IMG/VR virus record: IMGVR_UViG_3300042898_000574
Location: 1-25,759 of that record
Reading direction: 5' to 3' (one strand)
Length of the DNA: 25,759 bases
Origin: a virus
Numbering within the stretch: the stretch's first letter is position 1; each line of letters starts with the position of its first letter. Position numbers and translations under genes: made by a program. The notes beneath the pieces are model-generated. The model had not been told where the DNA came from and did not search any database. It saw only the letters and a list, made by a program, of their open reading frames with translations. This document shows positions 3,812 to 22,203 of this stretch, one piece after another.

Positions 3812-3891
3812 GTGAACGAAATAACGAATACCCGGTATACCCGGAGGACGATGGATATGATAGATTTCGTAATCCATACAGCCCAGTATGA
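3808..3891 (+). CDS. 27-aa micro-ORF bridging two genes
   Basis: ATG at 3808 overlaps the upstream stop (ATGA), and its own TGA (3889-3891) overlaps the start of the desaturase at 3888 (again ATGA). The product is 27 residues, MSERNNEYPVYPEDDGYDRF followed by RNPYSPV. It is rich in Tyr, Asp and Pro with no membrane segment. Double ATGA coupling exactly filling the gap, plus GGAG at 3842-3845, argue it is translated, if only to couple the desaturase to the upstream gene. No function is recognisable. Confidence 0.55.
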   Translation: MSERNNEYPVYPEDDGYDRFRNPYSPV

Positions 3892-4610
3892 TAGAACTAC
3901 TATATGTTTTAGTGATGACACATATCACTATTGTATGTGTAACAGTTTACCTACATAGAGGGCAAGCACATAGGGGTTTGATATTTAATCCTATACTTAG
4001 TCATTTTATGCGCTTTTGGTTGTGGATAACAACTGGTATGGTGACTAAACAATGGGTCGCTATACACCGCAAACATCACAAAGAATGTGACCAAGCTGGA
4101 GATCCACACAGTCCATTGATTTATGGAATTAAACGTGTATTGTTTGGTGGTGCTTTCTTGTACCATGAAGCTAGTAAAGATACAAAAATGATTGATAACT
4201 TTGGTGTAGGTACACCGGATGATTGGATAGAACATAATGTATATACCAAACACAGCCGAGTTGGAATTCTAATCATGTTGTTAATTAATATACTACTATT
4301 TGGTATATGGGGAGTGTTAATATGGGGTATTCAAATGATATGGATTCCATTCTGGGCCGCTGGTGTAATCAATGGAATTGGACATTGGTGGGGGTATCGT
4401 AATGGTGAAACTAAAGATAACAGTAGAAACATTGTTCCTTGGGATATTATTGTTGGTGGCGAATGCCTTCATAATAACCATCATTTGGATCCTGCTAACC
4501 CTAAACTAAGCCGTCGATGGTTTGAATTTGATATTGGTTGGTTTTATATTCAGTTATTCAGAGCAACTAGATTAATGAAATTAAAGAACACCCTTAGGAC
4601 CGTAACTTAG
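3888..4610 (+). CDS. Fatty acid (acyl-CoA/acyl-lipid) desaturase
   Basis: The 240-aa membrane protein belongs to the di-iron desaturase family that introduces double bonds in fatty acyl chains. All three histidine boxes are present: HRGQAH (23-28), HRKHH (60-64) and HNNHH (195-199), together with GHWWGYRN at 165-172. Hydrophobic segments lie at 1-20, around 40-55 and 125-160. It is shorter than bacterial relatives (commonly about 300 aa), mainly at the N-terminus, but the catalytic ligands are intact, so it looks functional. Such genes act as auxiliary metabolic genes in aquatic phages, presumably altering host membrane fluidity. The start overlaps the micro-ORF stop (ATGA). A perfect inverted repeat spans its stop codon. 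Confidence 0.9.
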   Translation: MIELLYVLVMTHITIVCVTVYLHRGQAHRGLIFNPILSHFMRFWLWITTGMVTKQWVAIHRKHHKECDQAGDPHSPLIYGIKRVLFGGAFLYHEASKDTKMIDNFGVGTPDDWIEHNVYTKHSRVGILIMLLINILLFGIWGVLIWGIQMIWIPFWAAGVINGIGHWWGYRNGETKDNSRNIVPWDIIVGGECLHNNHHLDPANPKLSRRWFEFDIGWFYIQLFRATRLMKLKNTLRTVT

Positions 4611-10604: not shown

Positions 10605-10987
10605 TTGAAACTATAGTTGGTGGTGAGTTTATGAACGTGACTAGTTATAAGGGAGCAACCCCTTATATTGGTCAAACTAATATCCCCATGGTAGGCGCGG
10701 TATCATATGATTCATCTAGTCAATATATGAAAGTATATGATGGTTCTGTTTGGCAAAAGGTAGGGGGCGGCAATGCTACTGTCAATCTAACACCAAACGC
10801 TATTGCTATACTCAAGTGGGCTGAGAAGAAGATGTTTGAAGAAACAGAATACGAACAGCTTGCTAAAACCAACCCCACTATCAAAAGTTTGTTAGATGAA
10901 ATGAACAAGTATAAGGATCAAATTGAAATGGTTAAAGTTCTACTAAAAAGTTCTGGAAACGAACCAATAGAAATGATGGGCAGTTAA
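10601..10987 (+). CDS. Hypothetical protein with fibre-like N-terminus and helical C-terminus
   Basis: The 128-aa protein is coupled to the clamp by ATGA and to the next gene by TAATG. Residues about 31-54 (VGAVSYDSSSQYMKVYDGS, then VWQKV) match a beta motif common in phage fibre and structural proteins. The rest, from LTPNAIAILKWAEKKM to the end, is helical and charged and may form a coiled coil. A second possible start is ATG 10631, with GGTGAG at 10622-10627, which would remove ten residues. A structural-like motif inside a replication operon is odd. Function unknown. Confidence 0.72.
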   Translation: MIETIVGGEFMNVTSYKGATPYIGQTNIPMVGAVSYDSSSQYMKVYDGSVWQKVGGGNATVNLTPNAIAILKWAEKKMFEETEYEQLAKTNPTIKSLLDEMNKYKDQIEMVKVLLKSSGNEPIEMMGS

Positions 10988-12531
10988 TGGATCAAGTTAA
11001 TTTATCAGCGACTCATAACCCAGACTGGGCATTGTTCTTACCTGCAGTCAGTAGTTTTTATATCTCTGGCTTAGGTAAACAACGTAAGGGTGAGCCGTAC
11101 TTTGACCAAGCACGTATCCCTGCACAGTTTAACGGTGATGTTGAGAAACTTAACTTTCTTAACAGCAAAGAAGGTCTCTATTATTACAAATGGGGACTGT
11201 ACTCTGCTGGTCATGCTAACTTAGATACAACTGTAAACGATCCTAGTGAAAGTATCATTAGAGAACGTGAAGCTGGTACATTCATGTTGGGTGACAGTGG
11301 TGGATTTCAGATTCTTAAAGGTCAATGGCCTGCTGACTGGAAGGATCCTAACTGTCCTCGTGCAATGGTAAAGCGTAAAACTGTATTGAACTGGATGGAC
11401 ACATACATGGATTATGGTATGTGTTTAGATATCCCTTCACAGTCTTTAACTACTTTTGGTATGAAAGATAAGAATGGTAATAGTCTTCATGGTATCAGTA
11501 CCATTGAAGAAGCAATTACCGCTACTCATATTAACAACGAATACTTTATTAACAATCGTTCGGGTAAATGTAAATTCTTAAATGTATTGCAAGGTCGCAA
11601 TCATGGTCAGTCAGAAGACTGGTATGCTGAGATGAAAAAATATTGTGACCCAAATATCTATCCAGATAATCATTTTAATGGCTGGGCGTTTGGGGGTCAG
11701 AATAAGATTGATGTACACTTGATGTTAACACGCATGGTCGATATCATCCATGATGGGTTACTGGTAGAAGGTAAACATGATTTAATTCACTGTTTGGGTA
11801 CAAGTATCTTAGAGTATGCTGTATTGTTTAGTGATATTCAACGTGCTATCCGCAAATATCATAATCCTAATCTACAAATTACCTTTGACTGTGCAAGTCC
11901 TTTCTTTAGTGCGGCTAAAGGTTTAGCGTATTTCAATACAAGTATTGAGCATAATAAGAAATGGTCATACAGTATGGAAAAGACTGCTGAGAAAAAGTCT
12001 TACTCAACTGACACTCGCAAGTTTAAGGACGCAGTGTTAGCAGAAGGCATCCATAAAGTCTTTACAGATAGTCCAGTAACTGATAAACTAGAGCTTAGGG
12101 ACTTATGTTATCGTGGTGTAGGTTTCTTAGGACAGCATGGTAAAGAAACTAAAACCAGTTGGGATACATTGAGCTATACACTTCTGCAAAGTCATAATGT
12201 GTTTACACATATGTCAGCAGTTCAAGAGGCTAATCGTCAATATGATACAGGAGTTGTTCCTAAAATGTTAATGAATGAACAGTTTGAACGTGTTCTATTC
12301 AAAGACGTTATTGATGAGGTCTTTTCTAAGAAGAACAAGCAAGAAGCTATCGACTTGATTAATCAAAACAGTAGATTATGGATGCAGTTTCAGTCAGGTA
12401 GTCAAGGTATCAGTGGTAAGAGAACGGTAAATGCAATGACTATGTTTGACCAATTGTTTGAAACAGAATCAGAGGTTGACGAAGTTATTGAAGATAGTGA
12501 TGATGAAATTTCAAAAGTATTAGGAGAATGA
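10987..12531 (+). CDS. dpdA: TGT-like guanine transglycosylase, DpdA family candidate
   Basis: The 514-aa protein resembles tRNA-guanine transglycosylase; phage DpdA relatives exchange guanine for a 7-deazaguanine base in DNA. Family landmarks appear in the correct order: LGDSGGFQ with D103 (TGT base-binding D102 region), VLQGRNH with Q202 (TGT VQGG), GWAFGGQ with G236-G237 (TGT GlavGG), and TFDCASPF with D301, the position of the catalytic nucleophile. The Cys/His zinc cluster of bacterial TGT is not evident, and a C-terminal extension of about 150 residues ends in an acidic tail. These differences, and FolE, QueD and QueE within 11 kb, favour a DNA-modifying enzyme over tRNA modification. 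The last codons supply AGGAG for the next gene. Confidence 0.82.
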   Translation: MDQVNLSATHNPDWALFLPAVSSFYISGLGKQRKGEPYFDQARIPAQFNGDVEKLNFLNSKEGLYYYKWGLYSAGHANLDTTVNDPSESIIREREAGTFMLGDSGGFQILKGQWPADWKDPNCPRAMVKRKTVLNWMDTYMDYGMCLDIPSQSLTTFGMKDKNGNSLHGISTIEEAITATHINNEYFINNRSGKCKFLNVLQGRNHGQSEDWYAEMKKYCDPNIYPDNHFNGWAFGGQNKIDVHLMLTRMVDIIHDGLLVEGKHDLIHCLGTSILEYAVLFSDIQRAIRKYHNPNLQITFDCASPFFSAAKGLAYFNTSIEHNKKWSYSMEKTAEKKSYSTDTRKFKDAVLAEGIHKVFTDSPVTDKLELRDLCYRGVGFLGQHGKETKTSWDTLSYTLLQSHNVFTHMSAVQEANRQYDTGVVPKMLMNEQFERVLFKDVIDEVFSKKNKQEAIDLINQNSRLWMQFQSGSQGISGKRTVNAMTMFDQLFETESEVDEVIEDSDDEISKVLGE

Positions 12532-14219: not shown

Positions 14220-15303
14220 AATACTTAAAGAATATGTTTGCACTAAACCTTTTAACTACATAGATGCCCAAGATAATACACTGTGGGTTTGTTGTCCTAG
14301 TTGGTGTCCTTCTAATTTAATAGGTGAGGCAAAATCTCATTATAATGTCAATGAACATTGGCACGGGGATATTGCATCTGATATTAGAAAATCAGTGTTT
14401 GATGGTAGCTATAGTCATTGCAACAAAAAAGTGTGCCCAGATTTATCGCAGTTGATTAACACCGGTAAAGTTCCTAGTTCTTTTTTATCTAAAAAAGATT
14501 TCAAAAAAAAATATAACATTTCTTCCATTGAAGATTTAGAAAATTTCGAAGGACTACCTGAAGAAATATTGTTTGGGTTTGATCGTAGTTGTAATTTAAA
14601 ATGTCCTAGCTGCCGCGCTGATATTGTAACCAATGATGATCCCGAATCAGATGCATACAAGAACAAATTACATCTACTCAATTCAATAGAAAAACACTTT
14701 TCCAAGTCACTACGAAGAATGATGATTACTGGTAGTGGTGATCCTTTTTATTCTAAAATTTATCGTGATTACTTGATAAATTTTGATGTAAGTAAATATC
14801 CAAATTTACAAGACATACAAATCATTACTAATGGTATACTACTAACTGAAAAAATGTGGGGTAGTCTGCAAGCTAAACCATTTATAAAAACTATTGAAAT
14901 CAGTGTGGATGCTGGAACCAAAGATACATATGAGAATGTAACTAGACTAAACGGTAATTGGGATAAACTTATTGATAACATAACATTTTTAAGTAAGCAA
15001 TCTAGTATATCAAACATGATTTTTTCAATGGTGGTAAGTCAGTATAACTATAAAGAGATGCACACATTTTATCAGACGATTCGAAATATATTCGAAGGGT
15101 CATCAATTAACGTTGATATTAACTATCGGCAAATTGTACATTGGACTGCATCATCATATACTATCGAAGATATTAGTAATATATCAGTTTTTAATCCAAT
15201 ACATCTAAAATTTAAGAATTTTATTGAAGAATTCAATAAGGTTCGAATTTTACCCAAAGTATCACACAACTTCCATCATTTGAAAGAATTCTATGACAAA
15301 TAA
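14212..15303 (+). CDS. Radical SAM enzyme with N-terminal SPASM-like Cys cluster
   Basis: The chosen start at 14212 overlaps the upstream stop by 8 nt and gives 363 aa; an upstream ATG at 14179 is less likely. The radical SAM motif is CNLKCPSC (C127, C131, C134), followed by MITGSGDPF, the GGE-like strand, and ISVDAGTKDTYENVTR, typical of this fold. Before it, residues 10-75 hold C10, CCPSWC (C27, C28, C32), C70 and C75, resembling a SPASM-type auxiliary Fe-S cluster region. SPASM normally follows the radical SAM domain, so this order is unusual. Such enzymes modify peptides, sugars or cofactors; the substrate is unknown. It is coupled to the nucleotidyltransferase-cupin gene by an 11-nt overlap. 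Confidence 0.86.
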   Translation: MAEILKEYVCTKPFNYIDAQDNTLWVCCPSWCPSNLIGEAKSHYNVNEHWHGDIASDIRKSVFDGSYSHCNKKVCPDLSQLINTGKVPSSFLSKKDFKKKYNISSIEDLENFEGLPEEILFGFDRSCNLKCPSCRADIVTNDDPESDAYKNKLHLLNSIEKHFSKSLRRMMITGSGDPFYSKIYRDYLINFDVSKYPNLQDIQIITNGILLTEKMWGSLQAKPFIKTIEISVDAGTKDTYENVTRLNGNWDKLIDNITFLSKQSSISNMIFSMVVSQYNYKEMHTFYQTIRNIFEGSSINVDINYRQIVHWTASSYTIEDISNISVFNPIHLKFKNFIEEFNKVRILPKVSHNFHHLKEFYDK

Positions 15304-16060
15304 AATTGTATTAGTTACAGGCGGGTTTGATCCTATTCACAGTGGGCACATTGAATATTTCAAGGCCGCTAGACAACTCGGAGATAAGTTAATTGTCGGA
15401 GTGAATAGTGACTCATGGTTGGCCCGTAAAAAAGGTCAACCTTTCATGCCTATTACTGAACGTTTGTCAGTAATTGAAAATTTAAAAATGGTAGATCATT
15501 GCGTTATCTATGATGATAATGACGGATCTAGCATCGAAGCCATTAACAATGTAAAGATGATGTACCCAAATGATACTATTATTTTTGCAAATGGTGGGGA
15601 CAGGACTGCAACCAACATCCCTGAAATGGTAATCAAAGATGTTGAATTTAGATTTGGTGTAGGTGGTGAGAACAAAATGAATAGTAGTTCTTGGATTCTA
15701 CGTGAATGGAAACAACCAAAAACATTGCGCCCGTGGGGTTATTATCGTATACTACATGATGTGCAAGGATGTAAAGTAAAAGAATTAACAGTTGAACCCG
15801 GTCAAAGTTTGAGTATGCAACGACATTTTAAACGTAGTGAGTATTGGGTAGTAAGTGAAGGTATGTGTGATGTGGTGTCGATGATGAACAATGGTTATCA
15901 ATTGCCTAGTAAAACATTAGCTAAACACACATCACATAATATTTCTGTAGGTGACTGGCATCAGCTAAGTAATCCATACAATGAACCTTGTCGTATTGTA
16001 GAAATTCAATACGGTAAAGAATGTATTGAAGAAGATATTGAAAGAAAATTAAATGCGTAA
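15293..16060 (+). CDS. Nucleotidyltransferase fused to mannose-6-P isomerase-type cupin
   Basis: The 255-aa protein has two domains. Residues about 4-140 form a cytidylyltransferase-like domain of the RfaE2/TagD type: GGFDPIHSGH with H16 and H19 (HxGH), then VGVNSDSWLARKKGQPF. Residues about 146-250 form a cupin like the C-terminal part of type II phosphomannose isomerase/ManC: RPWGYYRIL, VKELTVEPGQSLSMQRHFKR, EYWVVSEG and WHQLSNP. In ManC the partner is a guanylyltransferase, so this pairing is different. It probably activates a sugar or alditol phosphate as NDP-derivative for the glycosyltransferase encoded next, which overlaps its end by 8 nt. Confidence 0.86.
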   Translation: MTNKIVLVTGGFDPIHSGHIEYFKAARQLGDKLIVGVNSDSWLARKKGQPFMPITERLSVIENLKMVDHCVIYDDNDGSSIEAINNVKMMYPNDTIIFANGGDRTATNIPEMVIKDVEFRFGVGGENKMNSSSWILREWKQPKTLRPWGYYRILHDVQGCKVKELTVEPGQSLSMQRHFKRSEYWVVSEGMCDVVSMMNNGYQLPSKTLAKHTSHNISVGDWHQLSNPYNEPCRIVEIQYGKECIEEDIERKLNA

Positions 16061-17695: not shown

Positions 17696-18376
17696 ATGAG
17701 TTATAATAAAACAAAAACAGATCCAGAGTTGGGTCAACAAGTACACGAACATTTAGTTAAGATGGGTGTAGAAACACCTGCATTACCGAACAAGTTGATT
17801 CGCACAGATAAGATTCATATCATTGAAGGTCACTTCAAAGCAATCATGGAAACAATGGGGTTAGATTTATCAGACGATAGTTTGATTGAAACACCAAAGC
17901 GTGTTGCAAAGATGTATATAAATGAAATCTTTTGGGGTCTTGACTATGAAGCATTCCCTAAATGTACAACAGTTGACAACAAGATGCAATACAACGAAAT
18001 GGTTGTGGAGCGTAATGTTAATGTTCAATCTAACTGCGAACATCATTTTGTAGTCATTGACGGATTGGCTACTGTAGCTTATGTCCCTAAACAAAAAGTA
18101 TTAGGGCTTAGTAAGATTAACCGTATCGTAGAATATTTCAGCAAGCGACCTCAGATTCAAGAGAGGTTAACAGAGCAGATTTTTCACACCTTACAGTTCA
18201 TCCTTGAAACAGAAGATGTTGCAGTTATGATTGATGCACAACACTATTGTGTAAAGTCACGTGGTGTAGAAGATACAGGTAGCTCAACTGTTACTTGTCG
18301 CTTAGGTGGAGGCTTTAAATCTGACCCTGCGGCACGACAAGAGTTCTTACAGATTGCTAATAAGGGTTGTAAATGA
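17696..18376 (+). CDS. folE: GTP cyclohydrolase I
   Basis: The 226-aa enzyme converts GTP to 7,8-dihydroneopterin triphosphate, the first step of both folate and 7-deazaguanine synthesis. Hallmarks are SNCEHHFVVIDG with zinc ligands C114 and H117, GLSKINRIVEYFSKRPQIQE, and AQHYCVKSRGVED with zinc ligand C185. Length and motifs are those of an intact type I enzyme. An AAGGAAGG ribosome site lies upstream, after the 10-bp hairpin. Downstream are a small membrane protein and a DfrB-like DHFR; QueD and QueE genes follow within 4 kb, so its product may feed DNA modification, folate, or both. Confidence 0.96.
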   Translation: MSYNKTKTDPELGQQVHEHLVKMGVETPALPNKLIRTDKIHIIEGHFKAIMETMGLDLSDDSLIETPKRVAKMYINEIFWGLDYEAFPKCTTVDNKMQYNEMVVERNVNVQSNCEHHFVVIDGLATVAYVPKQKVLGLSKINRIVEYFSKRPQIQERLTEQIFHTLQFILETEDVAVMIDAQHYCVKSRGVEDTGSSTVTCRLGGGFKSDPAARQEFLQIANKGCK

Positions 18377-18909: not shown

Positions 18910-19145
18910 TGGGATTTCGCAAACCAATGGATTATAATTCAGTAAGTCATCAAATTTATATTGCAGGTGTAGAACTACACAGTCCTTATAATGACGGATT
19001 CACTACCTTTGAAATCAAAAAAGACTTACACAAGTTAAAATGGCTGTTAGATGAAATCATGGCTGACTCACCTACATTTGCAGGTGAAGAAGAATTCTTA
19101 AAAGAACATGACCAAAAGAAAATGTGGAGAACATTGTCAAAATGA
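18909..19145 (+). CDS. Small hypothetical protein
   Basis: ATG 18909 in a TAATG overlap is the best start, giving 78 aa; earlier GTG-type starts overlap the upstream gene more. The product has a beta-like first half (QIYIAGVELHSPYNDGFTTF) and a helical, charged second half. No family is recognised. GGTTAGGGAG upstream serves as ribosome site. Its stop overlaps the next ATG. Confidence 0.7.
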   Translation: MGFRKPMDYNSVSHQIYIAGVELHSPYNDGFTTFEIKKDLHKLKWLLDEIMADSPTFAGEEEFLKEHDQKKMWRTLSK

Positions 19146-19615
19146 TTTTCAATCACGTTAAAGAATTAAAAGCACAAGGTAAAAAGATTGGCATTACTTT
19201 TAGTACATTTGACTTGCTACACGCAGGTCACGTTGCTATGTTAAGTGAAGCAAAGAATCATTGTGATTACTTGATATGCGGATTGCAAACTGACCCAACT
19301 ATTGATAGACCTGATACTAAGAACAAACCTATTCAAAGTATAGTAGAACGACAGATTCAATTATCGGCCTGTCGGTATGTTGATGAAGTAGTTGTTTATC
19401 AAACTGAACAGGACTTAAGGGATTTATTGCTTATTCTTCCAGTAGATGTTCGAATCTTAGGTATAGAATATGCTGGTAGGAACTTTTCAGGACAAGATGA
19501 ATGTGCTGACCGTGAAATAGCAATTGTATTCAACGAACGTGACCATAGCTTTAGTAGCAGTAGTTTACGCAAACGAGTAGCAGATGCTCAAATTATAAAT
19601 ACACTTAATAAATAA
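19142..19615 (+). CDS. Cytidylyltransferase-like nucleotidyltransferase
   Basis: ATG 19142 (ATGA overlap) gives 157 aa and is preferred to a GTG at 19124. The protein has the HxGH signature FSTFDLLHAGHVAML (H27, H30) close to the N-terminus and a C-terminal SSSSLRKRV like the ISTT-x-x-x-R motif of the family. LICGLQTDPTIDRPDTKNKP is the usual second strand-loop region. It resembles glycerol-3-phosphate or heptose-phosphate cytidylyltransferases, which activate a phosphorylated sugar or alcohol with CTP. It probably works with the phage glycosyltransferases. The exact substrate cannot be read. Confidence 0.84.
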   Translation: MIFNHVKELKAQGKKIGITFSTFDLLHAGHVAMLSEAKNHCDYLICGLQTDPTIDRPDTKNKPIQSIVERQIQLSACRYVDEVVVYQTEQDLRDLLLILPVDVRILGIEYAGRNFSGQDECADREIAIVFNERDHSFSSSSLRKRVADAQIINTLNK

Positions 19616-19616
19616 T

Positions 19617-20411
19617 ATGCCAAAAAGAATACTAATCATGGGTCTACCTGGATCAGGTAAAACTTATCTAGCACAATATGTACTAGAACATTTGCAAAAT
19701 GAAAAGAAACGTGTAGGTTGGCTAAATGCCGACGATGTACGTAAAAAATACAATGACTGGGATTTTAGTACAGAAGGTCGTATTCGGCAAAGTCATCGTA
19801 TGCGAGAACTTGCAGACTCAATGACAGAGTATGATTATGTAATCTGTGACTTTGTTGCACCATTAGTTGAGATGCGTAACAACTTTAAAGCAGATTGGAC
19901 TGTTTGGGTTGATACAATTGACAAAGGTAGATTCGAAGATACTAACAAAGCCTTTATTCCACCTGAAGTTTATGATTTTAGAATTACAGAACAGCAAGGT
20001 GAAAAATGGGGCGAGTTCATTGCCGCACATATATATGACAACCGTCGTAGACCAGTGTTTGACTGGCAAAAAGAAACAGTACAGATGCTAGGTCGTTGGC
20101 AACCTTGGCATGTAGGGCATCGTAAGTTGTTTGAACGTGCAGTTGCTAAGACAGGGCAAGTTATTATACAAATCCGTGACTGTCAAGGATGGCAAGGAAG
20201 TAATCCTTTCGCAATTGACCAAGTAAAAAGTTTCATCAAGCGTGACTTAGATATGTTATATCAAGGTCAATATGAGATTCAAATTGTACCAAACATTGTG
20301 AACATTACATATGGCCGTGATGTTGGGTATAAGATTGAACAAGAAACATTTGATGAAGCTACACATAATATTAGTGCTACAAAGATCCGTAAGGAATTAG
20401 GTCTTGAGTGA
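19617..20411 (+). CDS. P-loop kinase fused to NMN adenylyltransferase-like domain
   Basis: The 264-aa protein has two domains. The N-terminal domain (1-150) is a small P-loop kinase like adenylylsulfate kinase: GLPGSGKT (9-16), LNADDVRKKYNDWDFS, VICDFVAPL and WVDTIDKGRFEDTNKAF. The C-terminal domain (about 155-264) is an HxGH nucleotidyltransferase: GRWQPWHVGH (H165, H168) and ISATKIRKEL near the end, as in NMN adenylyltransferases. NadR joins the same two activities in the opposite order. The kinase half looks more like APS kinase than ribosylnicotinamide kinase, so NAD salvage and production of an activated sulfate or sugar are both open. It ends 8 nt inside the DUF2061 gene. Confidence 0.86.
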   Translation: MPKRILIMGLPGSGKTYLAQYVLEHLQNEKKRVGWLNADDVRKKYNDWDFSTEGRIRQSHRMRELADSMTEYDYVICDFVAPLVEMRNNFKADWTVWVDTIDKGRFEDTNKAFIPPEVYDFRITEQQGEKWGEFIAAHIYDNRRRPVFDWQKETVQMLGRWQPWHVGHRKLFERAVAKTGQVIIQIRDCQGWQGSNPFAIDQVKSFIKRDLDMLYQGQYEIQIVPNIVNITYGRDVGYKIEQETFDEATHNISATKIRKELGLE

Positions 20412-20610
20412 TACTAATAAACGTAGTTTAGCAAAGACTATCAGTTGGAGAATAACTGGTAGTTTTAGCACGTTTATGATATCGTATTTTATTTCAGGTA
20501 ATTTTGCTATTGCAGGTTCAATTGCAATAATTCAAATTATTGCCAATACCCTTTTATATTTTATACATGAAAGAATTTGGAATAAAATATCTTGGGAAAC
20601 AAAAGGGTAA
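20404..20610 (+). CDS. DUF2061 small membrane protein
   Basis: The 68-aa protein starts at a TTG (20404) overlapping the upstream stop by 8 nt, with AAGGA at 20391-20395 as ribosome site. LAKTISWRITGSFSTFMIS and the ending LLYFIHERIWNKISW are the signature of DUF2061, a two-helix membrane protein family. Two hydrophobic segments are visible (about 17-30 and 32-55). In bacteria DUF2061 often sits next to sulfate-assimilation kinases such as APS kinase, as I recall, which fits the upstream APS-kinase-like domain. The function is unknown. Confidence 0.86.
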   Translation: MSDTNKRSLAKTISWRITGSFSTFMISYFISGNFAIAGSIAIIQIIANTLLYFIHERIWNKISWETKG

Positions 20611-20690: not shown

Positions 20691-21173
20691 ATGGCAAACA
20701 AAAAATTCTTTTCAACAAAAACATACAGACAAATAGGTCCTGTCGCATATCGTCAATGGCGTGCTGACAGTCATTGTAACTTGATTCATGGCTATGCTAT
20801 GAGCTTTCACTTTGAGTTTGAAGCTGATACACTTGATGCCCGTAACTGGGTAACTGACTTCGGTGGACTACGACCACTCAAAGATAAACTAGAAGAATGG
20901 TTCGACCATACATTACTAGTTGCACAAGATGACCCGATGCGTGAACATTTATTAGAACTAGGAAGATTGAAACTAGCAAAGATTACAGAAGTAGAACGTA
21001 CTGGTTGTGAGGGTATTGCAGACTTCTTGTATGAATATGTTAATACAATCTTCTTGCCTAATTGTGGTAGTGAAGAAGCTAAACGTGTTTGGTGCTGTAA
21101 AGTAGAAGTTAGAGAGACTGATAGTAATATGGCAGGACGCGGTGGTCATAGGGAAGACAATGAATTCGCTTGA
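20691..21173 (+). CDS. queD: 6-carboxytetrahydropterin synthase-like (QueD family)
   Basis: The 160-aa protein aligns with QueD/PTPS enzymes, which make 6-carboxytetrahydropterin from dihydroneopterin triphosphate. Conserved: catalytic C29 in CNLIHGY, WVTDFGGLRPLKDKLEEW, DH at 72-73 in WFDHTLL, CEGIADFLYEYV and E142 in VEVRETD. Two of the three zinc histidines of E. coli QueD appear replaced by tyrosine: H16 is Y20 (VAYRQW) and H33 is Y35 (HGY), while H31 is kept as H33. I recall the same HGY pattern in other phage homologues, so it may be a phage lineage. It has its own promoter and AGGAG, and overlaps the next gene by 14 nt. Confidence 0.88.
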   Translation: MANKKFFSTKTYRQIGPVAYRQWRADSHCNLIHGYAMSFHFEFEADTLDARNWVTDFGGLRPLKDKLEEWFDHTLLVAQDDPMREHLLELGRLKLAKITEVERTGCEGIADFLYEYVNTIFLPNCGSEEAKRVWCCKVEVRETDSNMAGRGGHREDNEFA

Positions 21174-21354: not shown

Positions 21355-22203
21355 ATGAGTAAATTAAAAATTTCAGAATTATTTTATAGCATTCAAGGTG
21401 AAGGTAAATATATGGGAGTTCCTTCTATATTCCTTAGAACATACGGATGCAACTTTACATGTGGCGGCTTCGGCATGCCTAAAGGAGAATTGAGTAGTGA
21501 AAGAGATGTTATTGCGATTAAAGCAGAGGGTTATACAGATTATAAATCCTTACCGCTTGTCAGTACAGGATGTGATAGTTACGCATCTTGGGACCCTCGT
21601 TTTAAACATCTTAGTCCTGTTATCGATTCCGATGTTATTGCTAACAGTATTTGTGATTTATTGCCTGGACATCGTTGGCTTGATGAGCACTTGGTTATCA
21701 CGGGCGGTGAACCGCTTCTAGGATGGCAACGTGCATATCCCGACCTGTTATCACATGACAGAATGAAAGCATTACAAGAAATTACATTTGAGACAAATGG
21801 TACTCAATTAATTTCCCTTGAGTTTGGTCAGTACTTACATGACTGGCAAAAGATGAGAGCTAAACATTCAATTACGTTCAGTGTAAGTCCTAAACTTAGT
21901 ATCAGTGGTGAAAAAGAAGAAGAAGCTATACTCCCTGAAGTAATCAATCAGTACCAGCAGTATGGTAATGTATATCTTAAGTTCGTGGTTGCATCTGAAA
22001 CTGACGTAAAAGAAGCTGAGGATGCTGTATTAAAATATAAGCGTAAGGGCTTTAAAGGTCATGTGTATTTGATGCCATGTGGTGGTGTAGAATCATTGTA
22101 TAACATGAATGCTAAGAATGTAGCAATTGCGGCAATGAACCGTGGCTGGCGTTATAGCGATAGATTACAAGTACCGTTGTTTAAAAATGAGTGGGGAACT
22201 TGA
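21355..22203 (+). CDS. queE: 7-carboxy-7-deazaguanine synthase (QueE), radical SAM, with split Cys motif
   Basis: The 282-aa enzyme is longer than B. subtilis QueE (about 240). QueE rearranges 6-carboxytetrahydropterin to 7-carboxy-7-deazaguanine. Landmarks: ISELFYSIQGEGKYMGVPSI, FLRTYGCNFTC, VITGGEPLLGWQ and FETNGTQ, all in place. The cluster motif is unusual: C32-x3-C36 is followed by an insertion, and the third cysteine is C73 in TGCDSYASWD, a segment that matches the normal CDTPYAW-type end of the motif. The spacing is thus CX3CX36C in place of CX3CX2C. I recall the same form in other phage QueE proteins. It ends in a TGATG overlap with the next gene. Confidence 0.93.
   Translation: MSKLKISELFYSIQGEGKYMGVPSIFLRTYGCNFTCGGFGMPKGELSSERDVIAIKAEGYTDYKSLPLVSTGCDSYASWDPRFKHLSPVIDSDVIANSICDLLPGHRWLDEHLVITGGEPLLGWQRAYPDLLSHDRMKALQEITFETNGTQLISLEFGQYLHDWQKMRAKHSITFSVSPKLSISGEKEEEAILPEVINQYQQYGNVYLKFVVASETDVKEAEDAVLKYKRKGFKGHVYLMPCGGVESLYNMNAKNVAIAAMNRGWRYSDRLQVPLFKNEWGT

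Follow-up and report, generated by a model that had tools for sequence, protein, structure and literature searches.

An open reading frame at positions 19617–20411 of the window, i.e., the whole stretch of viral DNA that was analysed (a virus record of 25,759 bases), probably encodes a compact bifunctional PAPS synthetase. This gene lies on the + strand, starts with ATG and encodes 264 amino acids followed by a stop codon, with an APS-kinase-type P-loop domain placed ahead of a minimal HxGH adenylyltransferase domain. An earlier note on this DNA had described such a kinase-then-HxGH order, the reverse of that of NadR, and both the reading frame and the Pfam matches of the two halves bear this out. 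We read the second domain as most likely an ATP sulfurylase of a compact and so far undescribed kind; in the open-access papers searched, neither this fusion nor such a small ATP sulfurylase turned up. According to this proposal, the N-terminal domain would phosphorylate APS at the 3′-OH, yielding PAPS, the sulfotransferase donor, and in the phage this PAPS would feed a phage or host sulfotransferase, leading to sulfation of a surface glycan or of another target. The proposal draws on the family, the fold, the conserved motifs, the gene context and, in one bacterial order, a distribution that excludes CysD; the two reactions, the preference of the second domain for sulfate and the final target are inferred. 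With a little less assurance, we consider it reasonably likely that the second domain, about 115 residues long, is an ATP sulfurylase of a third class that evolved independently, alongside those of PF01747 and CysDN, that together with an APS kinase, fused or paired, it provides phages, haloarchaea and most SAR11 with an unannotated PAPS pathway, and that phages sulfate surfaces during infection. If PAPS is indeed made, the module would fill a hole in the known sulfur metabolism of SAR11, which is abundant in the ocean, and would give a precise meaning to many “kinase” and “cysC” annotations. Sulfation could then be tested as a function of phages, and PAPS regeneration could draw on an ATP sulfurylase of very small size.

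Relatives of the fusion protein are encoded in 598 of the 600 pattern-matched stretches among the matches listed from IMG/VR, on contigs reaching 524 kb, and in 571 of the 599 pattern-matched stretches from bacterial and archaeal genome contigs, the 80 loci kept from this latter scan being mostly from SAR11 and SAR86. Relatives were also present in 5 of 50,697 phage records, and in the tree viral and cellular copies swap places at least five times. PHROG 10255 matches the full length of the protein (1.3e-49), but the entry shown says only “kinase” and mentions neither sulfate nor the second domain; PADLOC gave matches to the P-loop only, and weak ones. The earlier note had asked whether both halves keep their catalytic residues. 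In an alignment of 60 rows with identity down to 38%, the catalytic motifs of both are intact and invariant, namely the P-loop, D39, R42, F50, R55, R61, F79 and P82 in the kinase half, and HxGH, G233-R234, V236-G237 and R258 in the second half. Among 390 full-length fused copies, HxGH is found in 390, GRxVG in 389 and the P-loop pattern in 381, counts that are biased upward because part of the set was found with motif-containing patterns.

The kinase half (residues 1–144, positions 19617–20048) is a member of PF01583 by score and has the APS kinase fold, though it fails the apsK equivalog. Indeed, Pfam APS_kinase (PF01583) matches residues 4–92 with 45.2 bits for the whole protein and 47.1 bits (3.5e-12) for the kinase half alone, above the gathering cut-off of 21.1, whereas the apsK equivalog TIGR00455 gives 35.7 bits for a cut-off of 138.7. 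With a whole-protein model built from the 60-row alignment (pLDDT 90.9, pTM 0.75), the best 50 Foldseek matches were all APS kinases or APS-kinase-bearing entries. In the structure comparison, APS kinases reached Z 18.8 (rmsd 2.2, 143 residues aligned) and the next family was gluconate kinase, with Z 15.2. The likeness to APS kinase that had been noticed from the sequence is hence confirmed at the levels of profile and fold. Within this half, the P-loop GLPGSGKT (residues 9–16, positions 19641–19664) has G9, L10, P11, G12, G14 and K15 invariant, and FVAP (residues 79–82, positions 19851–19862), in which F79 and P82 are invariant, corresponds to the FISP motif of APS kinases when aligned with 2yvu and 3cr7. 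Compared with a classical APS kinase, the protein has a shorter lid, and N37 stands where human PAPSS1 has D87.

The adenylyltransferase half (residues 145–264, positions 20049–20408) has a minimal NMNAT/PPAT-type fold according to the model, the structure comparison and the profile. Separate profile searches, as had been suggested, assigned the kinase half to APS_kinase and the second half to CTP_transf_like (9e-5, 23.1 bits for a cut-off of 21) and, weakly, to NMNAT models (2.4e-7), with scores that stay under the NMNAT cut-offs (TIGR01527, 29.4 for 181.2; PRK01153, 30.5 for 127). Modelled alone (pLDDT 91.3), this half gave Z 10–11 to PPAT and NMNAT, and these two families fill the matches listed in structure searches with the second domain, with no ATP sulfurylase among them; PF01747 (ATP sulfurylase) gave no match in the second half at E up to 1. 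The HxGH motif of ATP sulfurylases is present as HVGH (residues 165–168, positions 20109–20120), with H165, G167 and H168 invariant in the 60 rows. The nucleotide site includes ISATKIR (residues 252–258, positions 20370–20390), in which R258 is invariant and I252, S253, A254, T255 and I257 are conserved in at least 90% of the rows, and YGRDVGY (residues 232–238, positions 20310–20330), with G233, R234, V236 and G237 invariant, may form the acceptor-oxyanion site. The family profile aligned to the archaeal NMNAT MJ0541 (1.3e-11) over residues 4–74 and 109–134, and nothing in the profile aligns with MJ0541 residues 75–108, the stretch that contacts NMN. Because this stretch is without counterpart, the acceptor site appears to be reduced, and a small acceptor such as sulfate would therefore fit.

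The second domain of the animal PAPS synthetases PAPSS1/2 is a large PF01747 ATP sulfurylase. These enzymes resemble the fusion in their order, a kinase followed by an HxGH adenylyltransferase, and in their APS kinase fold, but the second domain of the window protein has about 115 residues, is of the NMNAT/PPAT type and is without PF01747 match. Human PAPSS1 needs its HNGH motif to act as an ATP sulfurylase (PMC11697783).

The clearest clue to function is given by haloarchaea. The window protein matches nine haloarchaeal plasmid records, and in all eight of those viewed the relative is closely preceded, on its own strand, by a gene annotated as a sulfotransferase; the two are adjacent or have a single small ORF or about 0.25 kb of sequence between them. 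These relatives are annotated cysC. Their kinase passes the apsK equivalog in the three scanned (147.8, 160.3 and 160.3 bits for the cut-off of 138.7), and their C-terminal part is the same second domain, with its HxGH, GR-V-GY and IS-T-R motifs. This arrangement, in which an APS kinase is joined to an adenylyltransferase and a sulfotransferase gene stands next to them, is that of a PAPS pathway. Besides, a gene of the YqcI/YcgG family follows the cysC fusion in seven of the eight records viewed (L746–L752).

Viral neighbourhoods were compared in 90 distinct records holding the fusion gene (50 plus 50, of which 10 were shared). Sulfotransfer_3 was over its cut-off in 22 of the 90, and the copy nearest to the fusion gene was within 5 kb in 17 of these 22 records and within 10 kb in 19, a weak PF13469 match in G005 that overlaps the fusion gene itself being left out of this distance count. 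Under uniform placement, this closeness corresponds to a combined p of 3e-6, a value that is too small because several viral records are near-copies. When loci were collected with one viral sulfotransferase, the fusion gene being ignored, this gene was found within 300 bases at 78 of 80 loci, mostly near-copies, with a median gap of 3. At the first exception (L580), the sulfotransferase is immediately followed by the fusion gene, whose frame stops after 60 codons; at the second (L610), the contig runs out close behind the sulfotransferase. With a second viral sulfotransferase family, the fusion gene was present at only 22 of 80 loci. After dereplication at 85% into 103 virus clusters, a sulfotransferase-profile match was found within 5 kb in 20 and DUF2061 within 300 bases in 19; 37 clusters had one or the other within 5 kb and 66 had neither. 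No match was obtained in the window with five local sulfotransferase profiles. In Casjensviridae, the order is a Sulfotransfer_4 match, NADAR and the fusion gene, with Sulfotransfer_4 over its cut-off in three of four records (19.6 for 22.8 in the fourth) and NADAR confirmed in the three records scanned. In this family, NADAR overlaps the start of the fusion gene (7565–8008 in L001 and L003, 2565–3008 in L084).

A route to an activated compound had also been proposed, with the DUF2061 neighbour as a hint, and this suggestion proved well founded: DUF2061 tracks sulfate-activation genes. In the window, the DUF2061 gene (positions 20404–20610, + strand; PF09834, 1.8e-21, 76.8 bits for a cut-off of 23.1) overlaps the 3′ end of the fusion gene and encodes a small membrane protein that may be an accessory of the PAPS pathway. 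In a scan started from DUF2061, the fusion gene was within 2 kb at 39 of 40 viral loci. In bacteria, the order sulfotransferase-DUF2061-cysD-cysN is found on a Mesorhizobium nod plasmid and cysD-cysNC-DUF2061 in a SAR11 genome, and DUF2061 is fused to CysN in Microvirga. The exceptions, with no sulfate-activation gene seen nearby, are the viral locus L739, phage MW202753 and a Bradyrhizobium plasmid.

The CysD/CysN-CysC system (NodPQ) and the fusion have DUF2061 and sulfotransferase neighbours in common, and PAPS is the proposed product for both. CysD belongs to the PP-loop enzymes and acts together with a GTPase, CysN, and is not known to be related in sequence to the second domain. In Pelagibacterales, CysD and the fusion module never occur together. 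This was observed in a sample of 148 genomes, in which the family was matched in 126 at a threshold of 1e-6 and strongly (2.1e-25 or better) in 111. CysD was found in 0 of these 111 genomes vs. 9 of the 37 others (Fisher 1.7e-6, the kinship of the genomes being uncorrected), and all 15 genomes with a weak match have a canonical APS kinase match (5.2e-13 or better). Likewise, in a separate group of 50 module-bearing genomes, CysD was found in 0, PF01747 in 5, Sulfotransfer_3 in 30 and AprB in 20. In the literature, SAR11 is described as being without sat and cysDNC (PMC5069961).

Sulfotransferases were present in 82 of the 148 Pelagibacterales genomes and PF01747 in 7, of which 5 also carry the module. 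A simple positive link between module and sulfotransferase failed in this order, with sulfotransferases in 60 of the 111 genomes with a strong match vs. 22 of the 37 without (12 of 15 with a weak match and 10 of 22 with no match); the exclusion of CysD appeared instead. Nine genomes have a sulfotransferase but no match to the module, CysD or PF01747, for which incomplete assemblies perhaps account. As side observations, the SAR11 CysD proteins (L544, L546 and L547) are extended at the N terminus by about 190 residues. At three SAR11 loci (L127, L128 and L139), the kinase and the adenylyltransferase are encoded by separate genes, which lie next to, or on either side of, a variety of other genes; by eye, these are M24 peptidase, Rieske oxygenase, EgtB/EgtD-like and large beta-propeller ORFs.

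On a plasmid of Microvirga lotononidis, the fusion gene is immediately followed by cysD and by the gene for a CysN without kinase domain, with a partial sulfotransferase upstream (25.6 bits for a cut-off of 27). The protein, which groups with the viral copy L263 in the tree, has intact kinase motifs, while its second domain is altered at HxGH, NP, GR-V-G and the final arginine. Judging from this single sequence, the APS-kinase half alone appears to be maintained when CysD/CysN are present, and such a loss of second-domain motifs is expected if the second domain has CysDN activity.

Among the other explanations, the one that survives best, although unlikely, holds that the first domain is a true APS kinase and that the second acts otherwise on APS, for example by removing the APS made by APS reductase. 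The adenylyl group would then pass to pyrophosphate or phosphate, a role for which SAR11 gives some indication. The reaction of ATP sulfurylase is reversible, and at five loci (L090, L092, L093, L116 and L122) aprM or aprMBA follows a short way downstream of the module, the apr genes being identified by AprB (PF12139) and AprA (TIGR02061); at a SAR116 locus (L136), the second domain alone has this position. However, 15 other apr regions have no copy of the module beside apr, and phages and haloarchaea have sulfotransferases, not apr, by the fusion gene. With six loci near aprM/aprMBA but 0 of 15 further apr regions, a function in the apr operon was rejected as the main role. In those of the further regions that were read, pab-like ORFs and a HIT-like ORF, named from reading the sequence, stand before aprM.

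It is improbable that the protein combines a kinase with an adenylyl- or cytidylyltransferase whose product would be some other small hydroxy compound, activated for use in a surface glycan. Sugar-nucleotide and glycosyl genes do surround both the window copy and a SAR11 copy (L095), but the APS kinase fold and motifs, the apsK-grade kinase of haloarchaea and the exclusion with CysD argue against this.

The new NAD-salvage enzyme proposed in the earlier note, in which a kinase would convert nicotinamide riboside to NMN and the second domain would adenylylate NMN to NAD, is very improbable. NadR does join a P-loop kinase and an HxGH adenylyltransferase in a single protein, the best profile matches of the second domain are NMN adenylyltransferases, NADAR adjoins the fusion gene in Casjensviridae (though with the Sulfotransfer_4 match beside it) and jumbo phages are known to carry NAD salvage (PMC7824862 and PMC9503650). 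However, the fusion differs from NadR by its reverse order, by a kinase of another family, with the APS kinase fold, and by the missing NMN-site stretch; the NadR model TIGR01526 gives 15.5 for a cut-off of 341.15, and the haloarchaeal second domain is fused to a full APS kinase. The proposal was dropped on these grounds of profile, fold and NMN site and on the context of sulfotransferase, DUF2061 and CysD/CysN genes, the neighbours and distribution of the fusion pointing to PAPS.

Several other genes of the window were noticed. Two HldE-C-like nucleotidyltransferases are encoded at positions 15293–16060, fused to a mannose-6-phosphate isomerase cupin, and at 19124–19615, ending one base before the fusion gene. 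The fusion gene is surrounded by FolE (17696–18376), QueD-like (20691–21173) and QueE-like (21355–22203) genes, which together make up the early part of a 7-deazaguanine pathway. A 514-amino-acid ORF (10987–12531) without convincing match in Pfam, PHROGs or NCBIfam resembles, by eye, relatives of tRNA-guanine transglycosylase. Finally, this phage fragment also encodes a protein of the fatty acid desaturase family (PF00487) at positions 3888–4610.
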